8,297 nucleotides of DNA from Deltaproteobacteria bacterium. Lineage in GTDB: Bacteria > Campylobacterota_A > Desulfurellia > JAGGSF01. Within the stretch, counting starts at the first letter, position 1. Every line of letters starts with the position of its first letter. The stretch lies in contig JAGGSF010000017.1 in assembly GCA_021159235.1 (NCBI GenBank), positions 1 to 8,297 of the forward strand, in the 5' to 3' direction. Positions 1 through 8,297 of the stretch are shown piece by piece. The notes beneath the pieces are model-generated. The model was not told the DNA's origin, did not search any database, and saw nothing but the letters and a program-made list of their open reading frames with translations. The position numbers were made by a program, and so were the translations under genes.

Positions 1-75
1 TCCAAATGTCCCAGACGTTTGCAGCCTCAGATTCTGGGCTGTCATGACTGTTAAGTGATTCATTTCATACCTCAT
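1..75 (-). CDS. N-terminal fragment of an unidentified protein, cut by window edge
   Basis: An open frame begins at an ATG whose bases overlap the TGA of the preceding permease gene (ATGA arrangement) and stays open for 25 codons to the window edge. An in-frame second ATG (positions 63-61) has a GAGG six bases upstream and could be the true start. In ybhGFSR-type operons the next gene is normally a second ABC-2 permease (YbhR). The visible residues (MNHLTVMTAQ after the second Met) do not show the usual permease beginning of a basic helix with a 'KE...LRDP' motif. The identity therefore remains open. The position and overlap argue that it belongs to the exporter operon. Confidence 0.45.
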   Translation of the reverse strand, partial: MRYEMNHLTVMTAQNLRLQTSGTFG

Positions 76-1226
76 GCTTTAATCCTCTTATGAAATAACA
101 AGTAACCTGCGGTAAACAGCACGATAGAGTAAATTATAAGTGCTAATAGATTGGTCCATAGAATACTGGTTCCCACTCCCTTGAGAAAGGATCCCATAAT
201 GATATAGTTGTAATACATACAGGGGAACATATGAGCTTCTATCCAGGCCTCTTTTTTCAAACTCTCTATGGGAATCATCGTCCCCGAATAAAGCCAGGCA
301 GGTATTACAGTTAACACCGTGGTGATAAGCATAGCGGCAACCTGTGTCCTTACAAATGCAGAAACCAGAAGTCCGATACCTGTAGAGCAGATGACATAAA
401 TGCCCGTTGCAACAGCAAAGAAGGGTAGATTTCCCTTGAATGGCACTTCAAATAAAGATGTAACCATAATCCACAATATATTGGCGTTGATAATAGAGAT
501 GACTACATAAGGAAAAAGCTTTCCGATGAGGAATTCAGAGCGAGTTACAGTTGAGGAATAGATGTTATAGATAGATCCTGATTCTTTTTCTCTTACAATA
601 CCCAATGCAGTAAGAAATGGTGGAGACATAAAGAGGATCATTCCCATAAGGGCAGGTGCCAAGGAATAGATACTTTTAACAGGCTCATTGTAAAAATATC
701 GAACCTGAAGACCGATGGGATTAAGCTTTGATTTTGCCTGTTTCAGAGGAATTCCCATGGTTTTTGATATATAGGATGGTAGAATTTTTGAGTTAAAATC
801 TGCATTCATGGCTACAATGTATCCCTTTGTAATTTTGGTCCGATAGGGAAAGGTGCCATCTATTAGAAATTGAACATCCGCCTTTCTTCCGGCAAACAGA
901 TTTTCCTGAAAATGCTCGGGAATGATAAGCTCCATTCTGATGACGCCTTTATCCAGCATTTTATCTATCTTTCTTTCATCTTCAGTGTATGCCTTTAGAT
1001 CAAAATAACGGGATTTTGCAAATTTATAGATGTAGTCTCTACTTAGGTTTGTTTTATCATAATCAACAACGGCAAATGGAACGTTCTCTACATCTAAGGA
1101 AAGCCCGTATACAAACATCACCATAAGTGCAGAAGGCACTATAAAACATAGAGAAAAATATAAAGGATCCCTCAATATTTCACGAAACTCCTTAACTACA
1201 ATTGCCAGGATACGCTTAAGTTGCAT
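72..1226 (-). CDS. ybhS: ABC-2 type exporter permease, YbhS-like
   Basis: This 384-residue inner-membrane protein is the transmembrane half of an ABC exporter. Residues 1-20 are a cytoplasmic amphipathic start with the family-typical 'KEFREILRDP'. The first membrane segment is about 22-43, ending in 'YGLSLDVENVPFAVVD', a hallmark of the YhhJ/YbhS group. A large extracytoplasmic domain spans about 45-185. Five further hydrophobic segments lie near 188-210, 236-258, 268-291, 296-318 and 355-378. The ABC-2 signature loop (REKESGSIYNIYSSTVTRSEFLIGKLFPY region, 212-240) follows the second segment. E. coli YbhS is of similar length. The gene starts inside the end of the ATPase gene (11-nt overlap), with AAGAAAG just upstream as a ribosome site. 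In E. coli the homologous system has been linked to drug and cation export. The substrate here cannot be read from sequence. Confidence 0.9.
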   Translation of the reverse strand: MQLKRILAIVVKEFREILRDPLYFSLCFIVPSALMVMFVYGLSLDVENVPFAVVDYDKTNLSRDYIYKFAKSRYFDLKAYTEDERKIDKMLDKGVIRMELIIPEHFQENLFAGRKADVQFLIDGTFPYRTKITKGYIVAMNADFNSKILPSYISKTMGIPLKQAKSKLNPIGLQVRYFYNEPVKSIYSLAPALMGMILFMSPPFLTALGIVREKESGSIYNIYSSTVTRSEFLIGKLFPYVVISIINANILWIMVTSLFEVPFKGNLPFFAVATGIYVICSTGIGLLVSAFVRTQVAAMLITTVLTVIPAWLYSGTMIPIESLKKEAWIEAHMFPCMYYNYIIMGSFLKGVGTSILWTNLLALIIYSIVLFTAGYLLFHKRIKA

Positions 1227-3162
1227 AGCTTTCTTCTAAGTTTTTTATATCGTAAACAAAAACATCCTCCATGGACAGAGGATGTTCAGAAACCGATTTT
1301 AGCTCTATGCTGTTTTCTGTAAAGATAGACCTTATCTCTTCTACATCCCTCTGAGGATCAGAAGTTAGAAGATGAATGTCGTTTCCGTAAAGAGCCACTT
1401 TAAATCCTGCCTGTCTCAGTATTTTAAGAGAAAAAAATGGTTTATAAGTTGTTATCTTTATTAAAACTCCTGCCTTTTTCGCAACATCCTGTTTAAGCCT
1501 CTGAGGAGAATCATTAGCTATTATCTTTGCAGCATACATCAGTGCTAAGCGGTCACAATGCTCTGCTTCCATCATATAATGTGTAGTTACGAGTATGGTG
1601 ACTTTTTCTTCTCTTGACAGGTGAAAAATAATGTCCCAGAATGCGCGGCGGCCGATAGGGTCTACTCCTGAGGTAGGCTCATCCAAGAACAAAATCTCGG
1701 GTTTATGAACCAGTGCACAACCCAGTGCCAATCTCTGGCGAATACCCATGGGCAGTTTTCCTGCCAGATCCTCTTCGTGACCTCTCAGCCCTGCCATATC
1801 TATAATCCAATCCAGCCGCATCCTGGTTTCCTTTTTAGTCAACCCATATATTCCAGCATACAGCTTAATGTTCTCTGTAACCGTCAGGTCCCGGTACAAT
1901 GAAAATATCTGAGACATATAACCAATACGCTTTCTAACATCCCTTATATGATGAATGTCCACGCCTGCCACGGTGGCATTACCGGCTGTGGGGGGTATAA
2001 TTCCACACAGCATCTTTATCAATGTAGTTTTGCCTGCCCCATTTGGACCCAGAAGTCCAAAAATCTCACCTCTTTCAACAGAAAAACTGACATTATCCAC
2101 CGCACAGAATTTTCCAAAATACTTAGTAATCTTTTTAGCTTCAATGGCCACTTCGTCAGGTGGTGAATGGACAGACAAGTGAATGGGTGAAAGAGAAAAA
2201 CTGTGGGAATCGGGCAAATCAGAATGGCAGTTTTGTAGTAAAGCAATGAATACATCTTCCAATTCCGGTTCCTCTGCATAGATATCATCTACTTTTATTC
2301 CATTTTTTTTCAATATATCGTTTACCAGTGCTGTTGCCTGCTTAAAATCTTTACCCTCTACAAAAACCTTTATATAATTATCCACGACCTCCGGTTTTTG
2401 AAGCAGTCTTGAGAGTATATCCATTGCTTTTGTCTGGGGGTTTGCTAAAACCTTTACAGAACTTCCTTTCACACCATTTACAATCTCATCTGGCCTGCCA
2501 CGGGCTATAACCTTTCCGTTAAACATCAATGCCAGGCGATTAAAACGCATGGCTTCGTCCAGATAGGCAGTGGAAATCAGGGCGGTAACATTTTTCTCTC
2601 CTAAAAGCTGTGATAGTATCTCCCAAAAATCCTCGCGGGATACAGGATCTACACCGGTGGTAGGCTCATCTAAGATAAGCAGTTCCGGCTCATGTATAAG
2701 AGTACATATCAAACCTAACTTTTGTTTCATACCACCGGAGAGATGCTTCATTTTCCTGTTTTTAAATGGTTTCAGACGGGTCATATTGAGAAGTTTTTCT
2801 TTCCATTTAGACAACCTATCCTTTGGAACAGAACGCAGATGGGCAAAAAAATTGATATTTTCTTCTACGGACAATTCCGGATAGAGATTAAGACCCAAAC
2901 CCTGAGGCATAAATCCCAGACGAGATTTTATCTTTTCTGCATTTCTCTCTGAGCCAATATCCATACCAAAGACCCGAACTGTACCTTCATCAAACTTGAG
3001 TATTCCCGCAACTGCCTTCATTATTGTGCTCTTTCCTGCTCCATCAGGTCCAATCAATCCAAAGACCTCACCCTTATTGATACTCAGATCTATCCTGTCT
3101 ACCGCTATCTTTTTCTTGTATCTTTTTACGAAATGGGAAATATCTATCGCCACTTCGGCCAT
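1216..3162 (-). CDS. ybhF: Exporter ATPase with two fused ABC domains, YbhF-like
   Basis: This 648-residue cytoplasmic protein carries two nucleotide-binding domains in one chain and should power the adjacent permease. Domain 1 (about 5-235) has Walker A GPDGAGKST (38-46), Q-loop Q87, signature LSGGMKQKL (141-149) and Walker B LLILDEPTTGVDP (161-173). The switch histidine position is Ala199 (STAYLDEA). Domain 2 (about 338-560) has Walker A GPNGAGKTT (372-380), Q418, a non-canonical signature LPMGIRQRL (470-478), Walker B ILFLDEPTSGVDP (490-502) and the switch His528 (TTHYMMEAE). Each domain is followed by a small regulatory extension ending in a similar motif (PELEDVFIALL, about 299-309; PLSMEDVFVYDI, about 628-639). 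A Ser/His-rich linker spans about 311-335. The GPDGAGK variant, the missing first histidine and the LPxG second signature match YbhF as I recall it, which distinguishes it from RbbA (fused to a permease). Its start overlaps the adaptor gene by 19 nt. Confidence 0.93.
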   Translation of the reverse strand: MAEVAIDISHFVKRYKKKIAVDRIDLSINKGEVFGLIGPDGAGKSTIMKAVAGILKFDEGTVRVFGMDIGSERNAEKIKSRLGFMPQGLGLNLYPELSVEENINFFAHLRSVPKDRLSKWKEKLLNMTRLKPFKNRKMKHLSGGMKQKLGLICTLIHEPELLILDEPTTGVDPVSREDFWEILSQLLGEKNVTALISTAYLDEAMRFNRLALMFNGKVIARGRPDEIVNGVKGSSVKVLANPQTKAMDILSRLLQKPEVVDNYIKVFVEGKDFKQATALVNDILKKNGIKVDDIYAEEPELEDVFIALLQNCHSDLPDSHSFSLSPIHLSVHSPPDEVAIEAKKITKYFGKFCAVDNVSFSVERGEIFGLLGPNGAGKTTLIKMLCGIIPPTAGNATVAGVDIHHIRDVRKRIGYMSQIFSLYRDLTVTENIKLYAGIYGLTKKETRMRLDWIIDMAGLRGHEEDLAGKLPMGIRQRLALGCALVHKPEILFLDEPTSGVDPIGRRAFWDIIFHLSREEKVTILVTTHYMMEAEHCDRLALMYAAKIIANDSPQRLKQDVAKKAGVLIKITTYKPFFSLKILRQAGFKVALYGNDIHLLTSDPQRDVEEIRSIFTENSIELKSVSEHPLSMEDVFVYDIKNLEESYAT

Positions 3163-4112
3163 TCTTCATTTCCCTTCCACCGAATAATGGCATCTGCAGG
3201 CATACCTGGTGTAAGCATGTGCTCTGGATTTTCATCTAGGTAAATCTTGATGGCATAGACCAGTTTTACCCGCTCCTCTTGGGTTTGCACCTCCTTCGGG
3301 GTAAACTCTGCTCTTGATGAGATATACCTTACCGTAGCGGGAAATGGTTTACTGGGATAGGCATCCACAAAGACCTGAGCAGGAAGATTCAACCTTATCT
3401 TTCCGATTTGCGGTTCCGGCACAAAAGCTTTTAGATAAAGTGAATCTAAATCCACGATGAGAGCAATGGGATTTCCTGGAGACAACACCTCACCTATGTT
3501 TGCAATCTTGGTCACTATTGTTCCGTTTATAGGTGCAACGATCCGCGTATCGGACAGTCTTGCTTCTACTTCTTCAAGTTGTGCTTTGGTTCTTTGTAAT
3601 GCTTTTTGAACAGCTGAAACATTATCAAGAGCCGATTTCTCGTTATAAACTGCTATATTGTAAGCAAGTTGATAATTTTCTAATCGTGTCTTAGAAATCA
3701 CCTTTTTGTTAAACAGATTTTGCATTCTCTTTAAATCCTTTTCTTTTTTTATTCTGTTTTCGGTTGCTTTCTTAGCTTGAGCACGGCTTGATTTCAGTTT
3801 GTAGGAATATTGCTTGATTAAAGCTAAAGCGGCTCTTCTTTGAGCATTGAGTTCATCCGAGGAAAGCACAGCAAGCAGTTGTCCTGTTTTAACATCATCT
3901 CCTTCTTTAAAATATATCTGTTCTACCCTGCCCGGTATCCTGGTGGCAACAGTAACAATATCACCTTCTATTCTTCCATTGACCTTTATAAACGATTCCG
4001 GGATACGGGTTTTTTCTAAGATATAGTAGCTGTAACTATAATAACCGAAAACAATCGCAACGATAATGATGATTGCATAAACCAAAAATCTTTTAATTTT
4101 ATTCTTTTTCAT
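3144..4112 (-). CDS. ybhG: HlyD-family periplasmic adaptor (membrane-fusion protein), YbhG-like
   Basis: The predicted 322-residue adaptor would link the inner-membrane exporter to an outer-membrane channel. A basic N-terminus (MKKNKIKR) precedes one membrane anchor (about 9-31) without a lipobox. A split lipoyl-like domain follows: first half about 52-83 (RIPGRVEQIYFKEGDDVKTG), second half about 190-225 (RIVAPINGTI...SPGNPIALIVDLDSL). Between them lies a long alpha-helical hairpin (about 86-186). A beta-barrel and membrane-proximal region (about 226-313) includes FTPKEVQTQEERVKLVYAIK, typical of the YbhG group. E. coli YbhG has about 332 residues. The frame extends upstream to an ATG at 4124 and a TTG at 4148. 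I chose 4112 because the residues from there form the usual short basic segment before the anchor. None of the three starts has a clear Shine-Dalgarno site, so the start is uncertain. It is the first gene of the exporter operon. Confidence 0.88.
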   Translation of the reverse strand: MKKNKIKRFLVYAIIIIVAIVFGYYSYSYYILEKTRIPESFIKVNGRIEGDIVTVATRIPGRVEQIYFKEGDDVKTGQLLAVLSSDELNAQRRAALALIKQYSYKLKSSRAQAKKATENRIKKEKDLKRMQNLFNKKVISKTRLENYQLAYNIAVYNEKSALDNVSAVQKALQRTKAQLEEVEARLSDTRIVAPINGTIVTKIANIGEVLSPGNPIALIVDLDSLYLKAFVPEPQIGKIRLNLPAQVFVDAYPSKPFPATVRYISSRAEFTPKEVQTQEERVKLVYAIKIYLDENPEHMLTPGMPADAIIRWKGNEEWPKWR

Positions 4113-4120
4113 TTCTATGA

Positions 4121-4148
4121 GCATTACACAAAAGTCATCAGGTGTCAA
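4121..4148 (-). promoter_or_regulatory. Possible promoter of the exporter operon
   Basis: On the minus strand a perfect TTGACA (4148-4143) is followed, after 14-16 bases, by poor or badly spaced -10 candidates: TGTAAT (4128-4123, spacer 14) or TAATGC (4126-4121, spacer 16). It lies just upstream of the preferred adaptor start at 4112, so the transcript leader would be very short. The -35 box is good but the -10 is weak, so this is tentative. Confidence 0.25.
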
Positions 4149-4228: not shown

Positions 4229-4870
4229 ATGGCGGTTATTAACTTAAGGGACAAGCAAATACAGTGTAAGATTGTTTATTACGGACCGGGAAAAAGCGGT
4301 AAAACATCTTCCCTTATATACATATACAATATTTTGCAGAGCAAGGTCAAAAGTAAGATGGTTGTAATAAAAACAGAAGAAGAGAGGACACTGTTCTTTG
4401 ATTTTTTCCCCCTGGATCTGGGGAAGATTATGGACTTTGATGTGAGGATACAGCTTTATACGGTGCCGGGCCAGATAATGTATGCATCTACCCGCAGGTT
4501 GATCCTGAAGGGTGTAGATGGAATAGTTTTTGTAGCAGATTCTCAGATTGAAAAAAGGAGGGAAAATATAGAAAGCATAAAGGATCTGGAGGAAAATTTA
4601 AAGAGTGGAAGGCTTTTTTTAAAGGATATTCCACTGGTTTTTCAATACAACAAGAGGGATTTAGGAAAGCAGGGTGTAACTCTTCTTTCTGTACAGGATT
4701 TGCAATGGGATTTAAATAGATTTAATGTCCCTTATTTTTTGACCAGTGCGGTGGAAGGTTATGGCATAACGAATGCACTGAGAACAATTTCTAAACTTAC
4801 GATTCAGTATGTGAACAGTAGATTTACGAGATCGAAAGTTACCAGGGAGGATATACATGTCAGAGGATAA
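4229..4870 (+). CDS. mglA: MglA-like small Ras-family GTPase
   Basis: This 213-residue cytoplasmic GTPase belongs to the MglA family, which controls cell polarity and gliding or twitching motility in Myxococcus. Counting from this ATG gives the P-loop GPGKSGKTS (19-27), switch I TEEERTLFFDFFPL (49-62), the MglA-specific switch II TVPGQ (78-82, replacing DxxGQ), NKRD (141-144) and TSAVEGYG (172-179). Arg53, Thr54, Thr78 and Gln82 fall at the same numbers as the intrinsic arginine finger and catalytic residues of M. xanthus MglA as I recall them. This supports the start at 4229 over the in-frame TTG 4193 or ATG 4217. Glu52 replaces the usual Asp. A basic extension of about 18 residues (about 196-213) exceeds the usual length of about 195. 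No Shine-Dalgarno site is seen and a leaderless start is likely. The gene overlaps the next by 14 nt. A Roadblock partner is encoded downstream in the same operon. Confidence 0.93.
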   Translation: MAVINLRDKQIQCKIVYYGPGKSGKTSSLIYIYNILQSKVKSKMVVIKTEEERTLFFDFFPLDLGKIMDFDVRIQLYTVPGQIMYASTRRLILKGVDGIVFVADSQIEKRRENIESIKDLEENLKSGRLFLKDIPLVFQYNKRDLGKQGVTLLSVQDLQWDLNRFNVPYFLTSAVEGYGITNALRTISKLTIQYVNSRFTRSKVTREDIHVRG

Positions 4871-6017
4871 AACGGGAATTGATGCGGGAGAATTTGAGAA
4901 GAAGGCTTTCTCTGCCATAGATGAGCTTTTACCTGAAGAACCTGAGAAAAAGGAGGAACCTGATCCTTTAACAAAGTTAGACAAAGTTCTGCTGGGCTTA
5001 GATTGGGAAATCAGTGAATCAACTGTAAAAGAGTTTCTTGATACGGTTGAAGAGTTGAAGCAGGCCTATCCGGATGAGGCGAGTTGTGCTTTGCTTTCTA
5101 TGATAAGGAGTCTTGTGAAGTACCTCAGCGTTGCCCGTCACATGTCTCCTCCTGGAACGATAAAACTCATAGAAAAAGTAGCCGATGTCTTTAAGGAGAT
5201 AAACACCTCCACATTATCTCTTGAGGAGAAAAAGCTGAAGGCGAAAGGTGTTTATGATGATTTTTTGTCTTTTAAGAAAGAGATAGAGAAAAGAAGAAAA
5301 ACAGAAGTTTCTCCGATACTGGAGAAGGAGATCTTCAGCCTGAGGGCAGATGTTTCTGTCCTCAAGGAAGGTTTTGAACAGATGCAGTCCAGATTATCCC
5401 GGATTATGGATACTTTCAGTACTCAGAATGGCATTTTAGAAAATCTGAAGGAAAAGAGTGAGTATTTTTCTTCTCAGCTTGTAAAGATAATGGAAGAGAT
5501 AGGTAAAAATTACACTGTTATAAAAGAAATAGAAAAGGATGTCTCACCTTTACCAAGGGTGTTGATTGCTTCTATGGATGGACAACCTGTTGCTTTTCCT
5601 GAGAGATGTGTGGCTAATGTTTATAAGATTTCGTCGAGAAAAGCGAAGGAAATAAAGGGAAGATACCGTATAACCCTGGGCGAAATAAAGTCTGTCTGGA
5701 GAGGTTTAAGATCTGGTATAAGGGGGAGTCTTTCTAAACTGAAAGGAGATGAACTGGCAGAACTGGAAGTGCCTGTTTTTAAATCGCCGAGAGGAGAATT
5801 TGTTTCTATGGAAGAGTGTGTTTATAAAGCATGCGTCCTTCTGGAAGAAGATGGTAAGTATGGGTTGTTACTGGTAGACAAAGCTTTTTCTCGTAAGGCG
5901 GTTACTCCTACATCTGGCAGAAAGGGCAGAGAAACATGGGTGGACAGAGTGATAGAGGTTCCCAGAAAAGGAGAAATCCCCTTAGTTGACATGAAGTTTT
6001 TATTCAAGGGAGGTTAA
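4857..6017 (+). CDS. Coiled-coil protein with probable CheW-like C-terminal domain
   Basis: This 386-residue soluble protein is a likely signalling scaffold. Residues 1-40 are acidic and low-complexity (EEPEKKEEPDP). Residues 41-116 form a helical domain with the core LGLDWEISESTVKEFL, which I recall from chemotaxis-related proteins of Desulfobacterota. A long coiled coil covers about 140-228. Residues 232-384 look like a divergent CheW/CheA-P5 fold: an opening VLIASMDGQPVAFPERCVANV, a later GKYGLLLVDKAF strand pair, and a closing WVDRVIEVPRKGEIPLVDMKFLF. A conserved-looking segment (SSRKAKEIKGRYRITLGEIK, 259-278) is inserted in the fold. There is no signal peptide, membrane segment, kinase domain or receiver domain. 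GGGAGG at 4845-4850, six bases before the ATG, is an excellent ribosome site inside the GTPase gene. CheW-like membership is visible only as a pattern; the helical domain has no assigned function that I know. Confidence 0.75.
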   Translation: MSEDKTGIDAGEFEKKAFSAIDELLPEEPEKKEEPDPLTKLDKVLLGLDWEISESTVKEFLDTVEELKQAYPDEASCALLSMIRSLVKYLSVARHMSPPGTIKLIEKVADVFKEINTSTLSLEEKKLKAKGVYDDFLSFKKEIEKRRKTEVSPILEKEIFSLRADVSVLKEGFEQMQSRLSRIMDTFSTQNGILENLKEKSEYFSSQLVKIMEEIGKNYTVIKEIEKDVSPLPRVLIASMDGQPVAFPERCVANVYKISSRKAKEIKGRYRITLGEIKSVWRGLRSGIRGSLSKLKGDELAELEVPVFKSPRGEFVSMEECVYKACVLLEEDGKYGLLLVDKAFSRKAVTPTSGRKGRETWVDRVIEVPRKGEIPLVDMKFLFKGG

Positions 6018-6018
6018 A

Positions 6019-6516
6019 ATGGCTATGGACATGGCAATTGTAAAGGAGGAGATCAAGACGTTTCTGGAGAAGGAAGGAATTGTCGCTATGAGGGCCTCGG
6101 CAATGGGTTTTTATGAACGCCTTTTAGGACTGTCTGGCTTTGGTCTGGGGGGAATACTGTATATGTCGGGGAAAAAATCGGGTCGAGATGGTGGCATGGA
6201 GTTGAAGGGATTGGCTCAGAAATTGGGAATTTCAACGGAGGATACGATAAGAGAAGCTCTACCTGTGATGTTTACAGAAACAAGGTGGGGAGAGCTTAAT
6301 GTAGATAGTATGACGGAGAATGAAATTATATTTTCATTGAAAGACAGTGTGCTTGCTCGAGGTTTGAAAAGAAAAAAACCATCCTGCACTCCTATAGCAG
6401 GTGCATTGGCAGGGATTGTAGAGGTTCTTCTGGACAAAAAGGCAGATGGGAAAGAAATAGAATGTGTCTCTCAAGGCAAGGAAAAGTGTATTTTTGAGAT
6501 AAAGATTAAGCAATAG
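6019..6516 (+). CDS. V4R (4-vinyl reductase) domain protein, putative small-molecule sensor
   Basis: The 165-residue protein has the V4R signature in its C-terminal half: Cys123, a glycine/alanine-rich helix (AGALAGIVEVLL, 127-138), the E-C pair 148-149, Gly153 and Cys157 (VSQGKEKCIFEI). V4R domains bind small or hydrophobic ligands, and in some members metal or cofactors; many act as sensory modules in regulators. The N-terminal half (helices about 7-37, glycine-rich GLSGFGLGG 37-45, and 60-115) matches the usual full domain, so this is a stand-alone domain without an output module. It begins 1 nt after the preceding stop. GGGAGG (6008-6013) lies five bases before the ATG and straddles the end of the upstream gene. 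A second in-frame ATG at 6025 is less well spaced. The role as an input unit for the GTPase module is inferred from context only. Confidence 0.8.
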   Translation: MAMDMAIVKEEIKTFLEKEGIVAMRASAMGFYERLLGLSGFGLGGILYMSGKKSGRDGGMELKGLAQKLGISTEDTIREALPVMFTETRWGELNVDSMTENEIIFSLKDSVLARGLKRKKPSCTPIAGALAGIVEVLLDKKADGKEIECVSQGKEKCIFEIKIKQ

Positions 6517-6533
6517 ACCCTGGTAATTTAAAC

Positions 6534-7110
6534 AGGAGGGAAAAATGGCAAAGATAACGGAATTAGAAACATGCAAAGCCCTACTTTTAGAAACATGGCT
6601 TTCTGCATATGATGAGACGGCAATAGCATTTTTAGGAAAGAACGCAAAGATATTTCTTCAACAGGCATATATAAGAGCAGCAGAAAACTGGGTAAAGGTG
6701 ATGGATGAAAAATACAGTTTGAAAATCAATAGGGATTGTAAAACTTTAAAAGAAGCGGTGAATAGTTACATTAATCTTGGCGTAGATGGCGGGCTTTTCA
6801 AGGATAGCTCGGACTTTGTTTTAGAAGAAATAGATAACAAATGTGCATTAAAGATTAGTATAAGCAAATGCCCGTATGTGAATGCATGTTTATTTCTCTT
6901 AAAGGAAAGGGACTTTGATGAAAAGAATATAGCTTGTCCCAGGATAGGCTGTTTCCGTGGAGCGGCGGAATTTTTATTGAATAAAAAGTACGGATACAAA
7001 ATAATGAAGGTTTCTCCGGATGGAGGGTGCGAGGGTGTTGTGTATGATGTTACAGACGCCTGTAAAGATAAGGTGTTAAAATACTTAAAATAGGAGGGAA
7101 AAATGGCAAA
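6534..7110 (+). repeat. Two copies of a 19-bp ribosome-site/start block
   Basis: The block AGGAGGGAAAAATGGCAAA occurs at 6534-6552 and again at 7092-7110. In both places it forms the Shine-Dalgarno site, the 4-base spacer, the ATG and the next codons (Met-Ala-Lys) of a gene. The span given covers both copies and the gene between them. The identity ends within the second or third codon, so it may be shared optimal translation signal rather than true duplication. Confidence 0.6.
6545..7093 (+). CDS. Cysteine-rich divergent V4R-like protein (MetOD1-like), putative sensor
   Basis: The 182-residue protein has nine cysteines: 10, 65, 100, 109, 115, 131, 136, 162 and 173. Its C-terminal half aligns by eye with the preceding V4R protein: GAAEFLLNKKYGYKIMKVS...GGC (139-162) against GIVEVLLDKKADGKEIECVS...C (132-157). 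The N-terminal halves share the same helix pattern, and LKEAVNSYINLGVDGG (68-83) matches TIREALPVMFTETRWG (76-91) in position. The motifs CPYVNAC (109-115), CPRIGC (131-136) and GGC (160-162) cluster cysteines that could bind a metal or Fe-S centre or respond to redox. The cysteine pattern also recalls the 'methanogen output domain 1' family. There is no membrane segment. A very strong GGAGGG site sits four bases before the ATG. Function is unproven; a sensory or scaffold role beside the first V4R protein is inference. Confidence 0.65.
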   Translation: MAKITELETCKALLLETWLSAYDETAIAFLGKNAKIFLQQAYIRAAENWVKVMDEKYSLKINRDCKTLKEAVNSYINLGVDGGLFKDSSDFVLEEIDNKCALKISISKCPYVNACLFLLKERDFDEKNIACPRIGCFRGAAEFLLNKKYGYKIMKVSPDGGCEGVVYDVTDACKDKVLKYLK

Positions 7111-7468
7111 AACGGAGGAGATGGTAAAGGTGCTGAAGGAGTTGGGGAGTTCTACTCCAGGTGTGGAGGCATCAGCGGTGGTGAGTTCGGATGGTTTCGT
7201 TATCGCTTCTGCTCTGCCGGCAGATACAGAGGAAGATAGAGTAGCGGCAATGGCGGCGGCTACCCTTTCCCTGGGAGAAAGAAGTGCTGGTGAGCTTAAT
7301 AGAGGCAGTTTTGAGCAACTATTTATCAAGGGTGATAATGGTTATATAGTTTTGCTTTCTATTGGTGCAGAGGCAATCTTGATCGTTTTGGCTCGTCCCG
7401 ATGCAAAATTGGGATTGATATTTCTGGATACCAGAAGAACAGCAGAGAAGATTGAGAAACTCCTGTGA
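7103..7468 (+). CDS. Roadblock/LC7 domain protein, MglB-like GTPase regulator
   Basis: This 121-residue protein is a single Roadblock/LC7 domain. It has an N-terminal helix (3-15), the family motif GVEASAVVSSDGFVIAS (20-36), a central alanine-rich helix (46-62), and a strand pair (about 71-86 and 91-97, GAEAILIVLARPDAKLG) before the last helix (about 107-121, LDTRRTAEKIEKLL). Such proteins dimerise and regulate Ras-like GTPases; MglB is the GAP and exchange partner of MglA. Co-occurrence with an MglA-like GTPase in one operon makes the GTPase the likely partner. Here the two genes are separated by three others, unlike the adjacent mglB-mglA pair of Myxococcus, and the protein lacks MglB's extra C-terminal tail. 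The GGAGGG ribosome site overlaps the stop codon of the upstream gene. Similar domains also act as homodimeric scaffolds in other systems, so GAP activity is not certain. Confidence 0.87.
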   Translation: MAKTEEMVKVLKELGSSTPGVEASAVVSSDGFVIASALPADTEEDRVAAMAAATLSLGERSAGELNRGSFEQLFIKGDNGYIVLLSIGAEAILIVLARPDAKLGLIFLDTRRTAEKIEKLL

Positions 7469-7484
7469 TAAAATGAGGTGAAAG

Positions 7485-7820
7485 TTGTTTTCAGATGATG
7501 ATTTTGACCTACCGGTAGATTTTTTAAGTGAGGAAGAAGATGTTCTGGATGAGGTGGAAAAAGCGGATGAGCTTCTAAAGGGTTTTCTTGAAGACAGATC
7601 TACTTCAGGTATGTTTTCAAAACCTGTTTCGTTGAGTTCTGTGCCGATGATTGTTCCTCTTGGAGAGCTGCATATTCCTGAGGAGGAAATGAAATCCATA
7701 GTGGAAGAAGTTGTGGAAACCAAGAATAGAGCTTTTATTGAAGAAATGGAGAAGATAATTGATAAAAAGGTTGAAAAAGCCATAGAAAGATGGTTAAGAA
7801 GGGCTTTCAGGGGTATATAG
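7485..7820 (+). CDS. Small acidic/helical protein of unknown function, TTG start
   Basis: I do not recognise this 111-residue protein. Residues 1-38 are very acidic (FSDDDFDLP, SEEEDVLDEVEKADE). A middle stretch, 40-62, is hydrophobic and proline-containing (SSVPMIVPLGELHIP). Residues 63-108 form a predicted amphipathic helix that turns from acidic to basic (KKVEKAIERWLRRAFRG), which could be a coiled coil or protein-docking helix. There is no signal peptide or membrane segment. The start is a TTG: GAGGTG (7475-7480) lies four bases upstream, and nearby ATG and GTG codons in other frames soon hit stops. It begins 16 nt after the Roadblock gene and its end overlaps the next gene by 31 nt. An adaptor that bridges the Roadblock and PATAN proteins is possible but is only inference. 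Confidence 0.65.
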   Translation: MFSDDDFDLPVDFLSEEEDVLDEVEKADELLKGFLEDRSTSGMFSKPVSLSSVPMIVPLGELHIPEEEMKSIVEEVVETKNRAFIEEMEKIIDKKVEKAIERWLRRAFRGI

Positions 7821-8297
7821 AAGGTATACAATTAGAGGATTTATTGCAGATGCTGTGTCAGAGTTATTCTTCTGCGGAACTGAGGATTGACAGCGGTGAG
7901 AAGAATTGTGTTATCCAGTTGATAGATGGTGAGGTTAGCTATGCTTCGTGCGGGGAAAAAAGTGGTGAGGAAGCGATTCTTGATGTTCTGACCTGGGAGG
8001 GGGGAGAGGTTAATGTAGCTTCTTCCTTTGTTCCTAAGGATAGGAATGTGCGTTCAGGATGGATGGAGTTGCTTTTGGAAAGTGCGCATGCTATGGACAG
8101 GAGAAGGGCGGAGAAGGAAGAACGAAAAAGAGAGGCCATCTCAGAGGAGGACTCAGACAAAAAGATGTTTTATAAACATCTGGATAAAGGTTGGGAATTT
8201 TTTCGGAAGTCTGATTATAAAAAGGCCTTACAAGAGTGGGAGAAAGCCCATGAGCTGGACCCTGAGGATAGGGTAGTGCGTTTCAATCTGAAGAAGA
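7790..8297 (+). CDS. PATAN (DUF4388) domain protein with TPR, C-terminus outside window
   Basis: An open frame from the ATG at 7790 runs 169 codons to the window edge without a stop. Residues 5-80 show the PATAN/DUF4388 pattern: GYIEGIQLEDLLQMLCQS (8-25), ELRIDSGEKNCVIQLIDGEVSYASCG, then GEEAILDVLTWEGGEVNV. A charged linker follows (about 104-124, RRRAEKEERKREAISEEDSDK). A TPR-like helix pair spans about 126-165 (GWEFFRKSDYKKALQEWEKAHELDPED), so more repeats may follow outside. PATAN domains mediate protein contacts in signalling systems, including PatA-type regulators linked to type IV pilus motility in cyanobacteria. The start lies inside the preceding gene with no strong ribosome site, which suggests translational coupling. 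The domain begins almost at the chosen Met, as is usual for the family. Confidence 0.82.
   Translation, partial: MVKKGFQGYIEGIQLEDLLQMLCQSYSSAELRIDSGEKNCVIQLIDGEVSYASCGEKSGEEAILDVLTWEGGEVNVASSFVPKDRNVRSGWMELLLESAHAMDRRRAEKEERKREAISEEDSDKKMFYKHLDKGWEFFRKSDYKKALQEWEKAHELDPEDRVVRFNLKK

Follow-up and report, generated by a model that had tools for sequence, protein, structure and literature searches.

An eleven-gene cluster with an MglA-type GTPase, Roadblock proteins, and an LDWE-domain scaffold that probably regulates type IV pili with no chemotaxis kinase involved

The window analyzed here is the whole of contig JAGGSF010000017.1 (8,297 bp; C50 below) from a Deltaproteobacteria bacterium whose 1.13-Mb genome is assembled in 122 contigs with an estimated completeness of 100%. 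Seven plus-strand open reading frames (ORFs) of the window are the first part of an eleven-gene signaling cluster that is interrupted by the contig end. This cluster probably governs the activity of type IV pili and does so with no chemotaxis kinase, through a receptor, a scaffold, an MglA-type GTPase with a Roadblock partner, and a PATAN-domain protein that would reach the pilus motor. The parts themselves, their conserved linkage, and the pilus motor genes, which lie beside the core in relatives and at other places in the window's genome, can be read directly from the nucleotide and protein sequences.

In the scheme that we infer, both for the physical interactions and for the direction of signaling, a Cache-HAMP membrane receptor would sense a periplasmic signal, and its HAMP domain would relay this to a coiled-coil scaffold bearing a domain here called LDWE and a CheW-like tail. 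The scaffold may gather the receptor and, judging from gene adjacency, the Roadblock proteins and the GTPase, whose GTP/GDP state would be set by the third, MglB-like Roadblock protein. The GTPase and the PATAN-TPR protein would then act on the motor proteins PilB and PilC, setting pilus extension, and the V4R and Cys-rich proteins could supply lineage-specific redox or ligand inputs. Besides the linkage described below, two precedents led us to propose this output: SgmX, a TPR protein that MglA recruits, localizes PilB in Myxococcus (PMC11580455), and in Synechocystis, the PATAN protein PixE has been reported to bind PilB1 (PMC7690835).

The initial annotation, made from the window alone, had described seven closely packed genes on one strand, and this is confirmed, with neighbors that overlap by no more than 31 bp or are separated by no more than 28 bp (Table 1). 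The right end of the window shares 55 identical bp with contig C42, and the joined gene order of C50 and C42 is unbroken on single contigs in two congeners; therefore, the join between the two contigs is safe. Both congeners lack the first V4R gene and have the remaining ten cluster genes. Among the domains that had been named, the Ras/Arf GTPase, the first V4R, the Roadblock, and the PATAN domain (PF14332, 58 bits against a cut-off of 25, E value 1e-15) are backed by Pfam, whereas the TPR matches fall below the curated cut-offs and neither the proposed second V4R domain nor the CheW-like tail has a Pfam match. The observation that no receptor, kinase, or receiver is encoded likewise stands for receptors within the window, but a receptor with a partial dCache match (29.5 bits, cut-off 45), a HAMP domain (35 bits, cut-off 25), and no output domain follows on C42.

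The core of the cluster recurs in another phylum, probably Desulfobacterota, in which 41 of 395 genomes matched a profile of the scaffold. From these matches, 20 loci were picked by scaffold score alone, and their neighborhoods were examined in one scripted search. The GTPase and Roadblock genes adjoin on the scaffold's strand at 19 of the 20 loci, a count that, like the others given for these loci, was obtained with profiles built in this analysis on a similarity-ranked sample and is not a phylum frequency. Since the core is kept to this extent in another phylum, the linkage of Roadblock, GTPase, and scaffold exceeds chance, and the expectation in the initial annotation that gene order would extend beyond close relatives is borne out for these three genes. 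Same-strand PATAN genes occur at seven loci and separate same-strand HAMP receptor genes at six; at one further locus (L053, 8688-9758), a single protein fuses an LDWE domain to a membrane segment and a HAMP domain. As a natural link of this kind, the fusion supports a connection between scaffold and receptor. None of the HAMP receptors scanned, including those of the window's genus, has an output domain. At L050-L052 (three loci), the GTPase is followed by a CheW-tailed protein in which no LDWE domain is recognized, with the gene for the LDWE protein further on, beside PilB. Beside the receptor genes of these related clusters are genes for a periplasmic binding protein (L050, 11138-12334) and a class III cytochrome c (L052, 7995-8504), which suggests that the receptors have differing periplasmic inputs.

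The linkage also points to an output. Eleven of the 20 loci have a PilB-type ATPase gene on the same strand, such a gene is also found in two vent metagenome-assembled genomes (MAGs), and the motor proteins scanned beside the core have T2SSE and MshEN domains with TPR matches on the N-terminal side. In the window's own genome, C45 carries a run of PilB, PilT, and PilC, C39 and C13 encode a second PilB-like ATPase and a second PilT, respectively, and C9 and C62 give PilM-family matches. Searches with the CheW and MCPsignal families found nothing in this genome, although the same searches were positive in 7 of 14 control genomes (no CheA-specific family was searched). We favor pilus control because of the linked core, the same-strand PilB genes, the pilus genes of this genome, and the lack of detectable CheW and MCPsignal domains. 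The last of these also supports the earlier proposal of a GTPase-centered pathway that works without a chemotaxis kinase. That proposal had touched on pili through the PATAN domain, and linkage to PilB now names the type IV pilus motor as the likely output.

A small genome without detectable CheW or MCP domains could instead hold a decayed chemosensory array, in which a receptor that has lost its output domain and CheA/CheW remnants such as the divergent CheW-like tail are kept by drift. However, the cluster genes are intact in three species, and the three proteins aligned between the window and its congeners share 74-87% identity, with the scaffold at 74%, the GTPase at 83-84%, and the Cys-rich protein at 86-87%. 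In addition, genomes of a distant phylum show the same architecture, which looks like design rather than decay, and we regard decay as highly improbable.

The GTPase and its putative regulator provide a further reason for favoring pilus control. When a profile of three GTPases was compared with the PDB, MglA of Myxococcus xanthus and of Thermus ranked at the top (E values of 6e-57 to 1e-51), with Rab7 next (1e-5). In the survey by Wuichet and Sogaard-Andersen (PMC4316618), the marks of Group 1 MglA are TVPGQ as the G3 motif and an intrinsic Arg adjoining the conserved G2 Thr, and the window GTPase has both, the Arg being Arg53. This residue is kept in all core GTPases fetched from the other phylum, three of which have TTPGQ. 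In the rest of the window's class, only weak GTPase matches were found (E value of 2e-5 or worse). In a tree of the core GTPases, a further GTPase (L015), and M. xanthus MglA, the window pair sits on a long branch and groups with core GTPases from the other phylum (support 94/92), a placement that fits horizontal transfer but falls short of proof.

All three Roadblock proteins of the cluster are recognized by the Pfam Roadblock family. Roadblock 3 shares 44-51% identity with four core Roadblocks and 38% with the vent-MAG one, compared with 24-35% and weak scores between Roadblock 1 and the core Roadblocks. With the MglB model, whose cut-off is 200 bits, Roadblock 3 scores 53 bits (3e-14), Roadblock 1 scores 23 bits, and Roadblock 2 gives no match. 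Since Roadblock 3 exceeds Roadblock 1 in both respects, the MglB counterpart is likely Roadblock 3, outside the window. For the same reasons, Roadblock 1, the only Roadblock protein in the window and previously taken as the companion of the GTPase, was dropped as its main partner; it is Roadblock 3 that travels with the GTPase.

The N-terminal LDWE domain of the scaffold spans about 110 residues, occurs in one to three copies per protein, and matched no Pfam or NCBIfam family above curated cut-offs in the proteins scanned; it is apparently an undescribed domain. Beyond the window's genus and the other phylum, about 360 genomes yielded only three borderline matches. An AlphaFold model of the scaffold has a predicted local distance difference test score (pLDDT) of about 66-86 over most of the LDWE domain and a coiled coil at residues 156-228. 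When the LDWE model was searched with Foldseek, CheA P1 entries took ranks 1, 2, and 4-6 (E values of 0.16-0.26). With VIA-align, CheA P1 reached Z scores of 9.5-11.4 and a designed repeat protein 11.6, values that helical bundles can reach by chance. Sequence comparison showed no link between LDWE and CheA P1, and this candidate relationship was set aside at the sequence level. A conserved phospho-accepting His is lacking, as no His is invariant in a 23-row LDWE alignment, in which W13 and E14 are the sole invariant residues, and no CheA ATPase (P4) or kinase domain matched the 386-residue scaffold.

The tail of the scaffold can be connected to CheW through a homologue: it aligns with the Pfam-recognized CheW domain of the LDWE protein at L062 over 127 columns (hhalign E value 6.5e-6, probability 85%). 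Its top PDB matches are weak ones to CheA chains, and no significant match was obtained to Escherichia coli CheW or CheA P5. Pfam CheW matched neither the scaffold nor the 147-residue protein on C42, and the latter was rejected as a CheW protein for its weak similarity. Taken together, the scaffold could tentatively be seen as a kinase-less CheA analogue, with a P1-like domain lacking the phospho-histidine, a coiled coil, and a CheW/P5-like tail. Chemoreceptor-like Cache-HAMP proteins would then act on a Ras-like GTPase in place of a histidine kinase, giving a small-G-protein form of chemosensory pilus control; we consider this possible but doubtful.

Two further observations concern these proteins. 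The L062 gene (8951-10294) has no adjoining GTPase gene and is flanked by genes for glycosyltransferases and for a PAS histidine kinase. The counterpart of the 147-residue protein in one congener (L009, 5536-6063, minus strand) is 175 residues long and contains a tandem copy of LSGQLPSSYQQMEH.

Several points weigh against pilus control as outlined here: (i) nine of the 20 loci have no PilB gene in the fetched stretch; (ii) no pilus gene lies inside the cluster in the window's genus, where the pilus output would be by analogy; (iii) Lys replaces Arg53 of the GTPase in both congeners (L008 and L009), in which GTP hydrolysis may differ, judging from this substitution; and (iv) the AlphaFold model of the scaffold tail is unusable (pLDDT mostly below 40), and its assignment as CheW-like depends on a chain of homologues. 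The first point also speaks for a broader alternative, in which the cluster would be a general GTPase polarity module, like MglA/MglB of Myxococcus, positioning several cell-pole machineries, with pili as just one client and, in this small-genome genus, perhaps a different client, such as secretion or DNA uptake. The genome indeed encodes two PilB-like and two PilT-like ATPases, one of which lies beside genes other than the pilB-pilT-pilC run, and Myxococcus MglA serves two motility machines (PMC9481161). Nevertheless, the machine gene that recurs in the cluster encodes a PilB-type ATPase, and the documented link of PATAN in cyanobacteria is to pili; we consider a general polarity module rather unlikely.

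A pair of V4R proteins had been placed at the input of the pathway by the initial annotation, sensing ligand or redox state and setting the state of the GTPase. The first of these is a genuine V4R protein (PF02830, 52 bits against a cut-off of 31, E value 9e-14) encoded in the operon and resembling the C-terminal part of the MsvR model, and the second is rich in Cys. Bet3, a subunit of the eukaryotic TRAPP complex, is a homologue of V4R (PMC2253512); given this homology, a V4R protein could act on the GTPase itself, possibly as an exchange-factor-like partner. However, the absence of the first V4R gene from both congeners argues against a conserved role, and the V4R status of the second protein is weak: no PF02830 match was found up to an E value of 0.1, a weak hhalign match falls at the correct position (E value 0.023), and the predicted secondary structure is compatible with V4R at low confidence (model pLDDT 48). 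A model of this quality was too poor to settle its identity by structure, and that attempt was abandoned. No homologue of the Cys-rich protein was found in the 395 genomes of the core-bearing phylum, in a search without a positive control. The V4R pair does not hold up as a conserved input; both proteins look like lineage add-ons, and we find it improbable that they set the GTPase state.

With pilus control as the preferred reading, the cluster appears to be a variation on the known MglA control of pili, with an apparently undescribed domain and a mechanism that we infer. It resembles the MglA/MglB system of M. xanthus, which acts with RomR, SgmX, and FrzS on type IVa pili, in its GTPase with Arg53 and TVPGQ, its Roadblock partner, its proposed pilus output, and a TPR protein like the one that stands between GTPase and PilB (PMC11580455, PMC9481161). 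In contrast, an LDWE/CheW-like scaffold and an output-less Cache-HAMP receptor are not among the parts described in the available portions of these papers, and M. xanthus employs the Frz chemosensory system and RomR, whereas neither a CheW nor an MCP domain was detected in the window's genome. In Synechocystis, the PATAN domain of the response regulators PixE, PixG, and LsiR has likewise been proposed to target PilB1 and the pilus apparatus (PMC7690835), but these regulators are fed by photoreceptors, while the PATAN domain of the cluster is joined to TPR and encoded beside a GTPase. Streptomyces conservons (CvnA-D) also combine a small MglA-family GTPase, a Roadblock protein, and a sensor in one operon (PMC4316618, PMC13343842); CvnA is histidine kinase-like, the GTPases belong to Group 2 with GTPGQ, and LDWE, PATAN, and PilB are outside the four core proteins. 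Finally, the 2014 survey by Wuichet and Sogaard-Andersen reports that PATAN genes lie near some mglA genes of Groups 1 and 5 and that Group 1 neighborhoods vary widely, and its available part does not name an LDWE protein, an output-less receptor, and PilB as a conserved set (PMC4316618).

No description of this gene set was found in the open literature searched, a scope that leaves most subscription journals outside. How MglA-type GTPases respond to outside signals has mainly been worked out in Myxococcus, where the GTPase is fed by a chemosensory system. The cluster points to a different arrangement, found again in another phylum, in which an undescribed scaffold would connect a receptor to the GTPase and a pilus motor gene often adjoins. 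It thereby offers a nameable domain, a defined gene set, and testable pairwise interactions, and might account for the way in which bacteria devoid of chemotaxis genes control their pili.

Table 1. Features of the cluster in the window (C50) and on contig C42
Feature	Position	Strand	Remarks
MglA-type Ras-like GTPase, 213 residues	4229..4870	+	P-loop GPGKSGKT, switch-I Arg53, TVPGQ, NKRD
Scaffold, 386 residues	4857..6017	+	LDWE helical domain, long coiled coil, divergent CheW-like tail
LDWE domain, residues 38-150	4968..5306	+	Helical bundle; no Pfam family; CheA P1 among the closest fold matches
Divergent CheW-like tail, residues 228-386	5538..6017	+	Assigned through homologue chain via L062
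V4R-domain protein, 165 residues, 3 Cys	6019..6516	+	PF02830; in window's species, missing from two congeners
Cys-rich protein, 182 residues, 9 Cys, possibly V4R-like	6545..7093	+	Kept in congeners; no Pfam match
Roadblock protein 1	7103..7468	+	Pfam Roadblock (1e-20); not orthologue of core MglB-like Roadblock
Small acidic protein, 111 residues	7485..7820	+	Helical ending; no family match
PATAN (DUF4388) + TPR protein	7790..8297 (cut by window end)	+	Completed on C42; 185 residues in congeners
55-bp overlap with C42	8243..8297	+	C42 carries on the cluster
Roadblock 2	C42:82-462	+	Pfam Roadblock
Possible CheW-like protein, 147 residues	C42:455-898	+	Faint CheW likeness; no Pfam CheW match
Roadblock 3, likely MglB-like	C42:886-1299	+	Pfam Roadblock; MglB model 53 bits
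Cache-HAMP receptor	C42:1348-2544	+	Partial dCache and HAMP; no output domain

The surroundings of the cluster contain genes of other kinds. Downstream of it in all three species are genes for an oligopeptide-type ABC ATPase and QueF, along with other genes. On the other side, outside the cluster, the window carries a divergent three-gene exporter on the minus strand (72-4148), consisting of an ABC permease, a two-domain ATPase, and an HlyD-type protein as assigned by eye.

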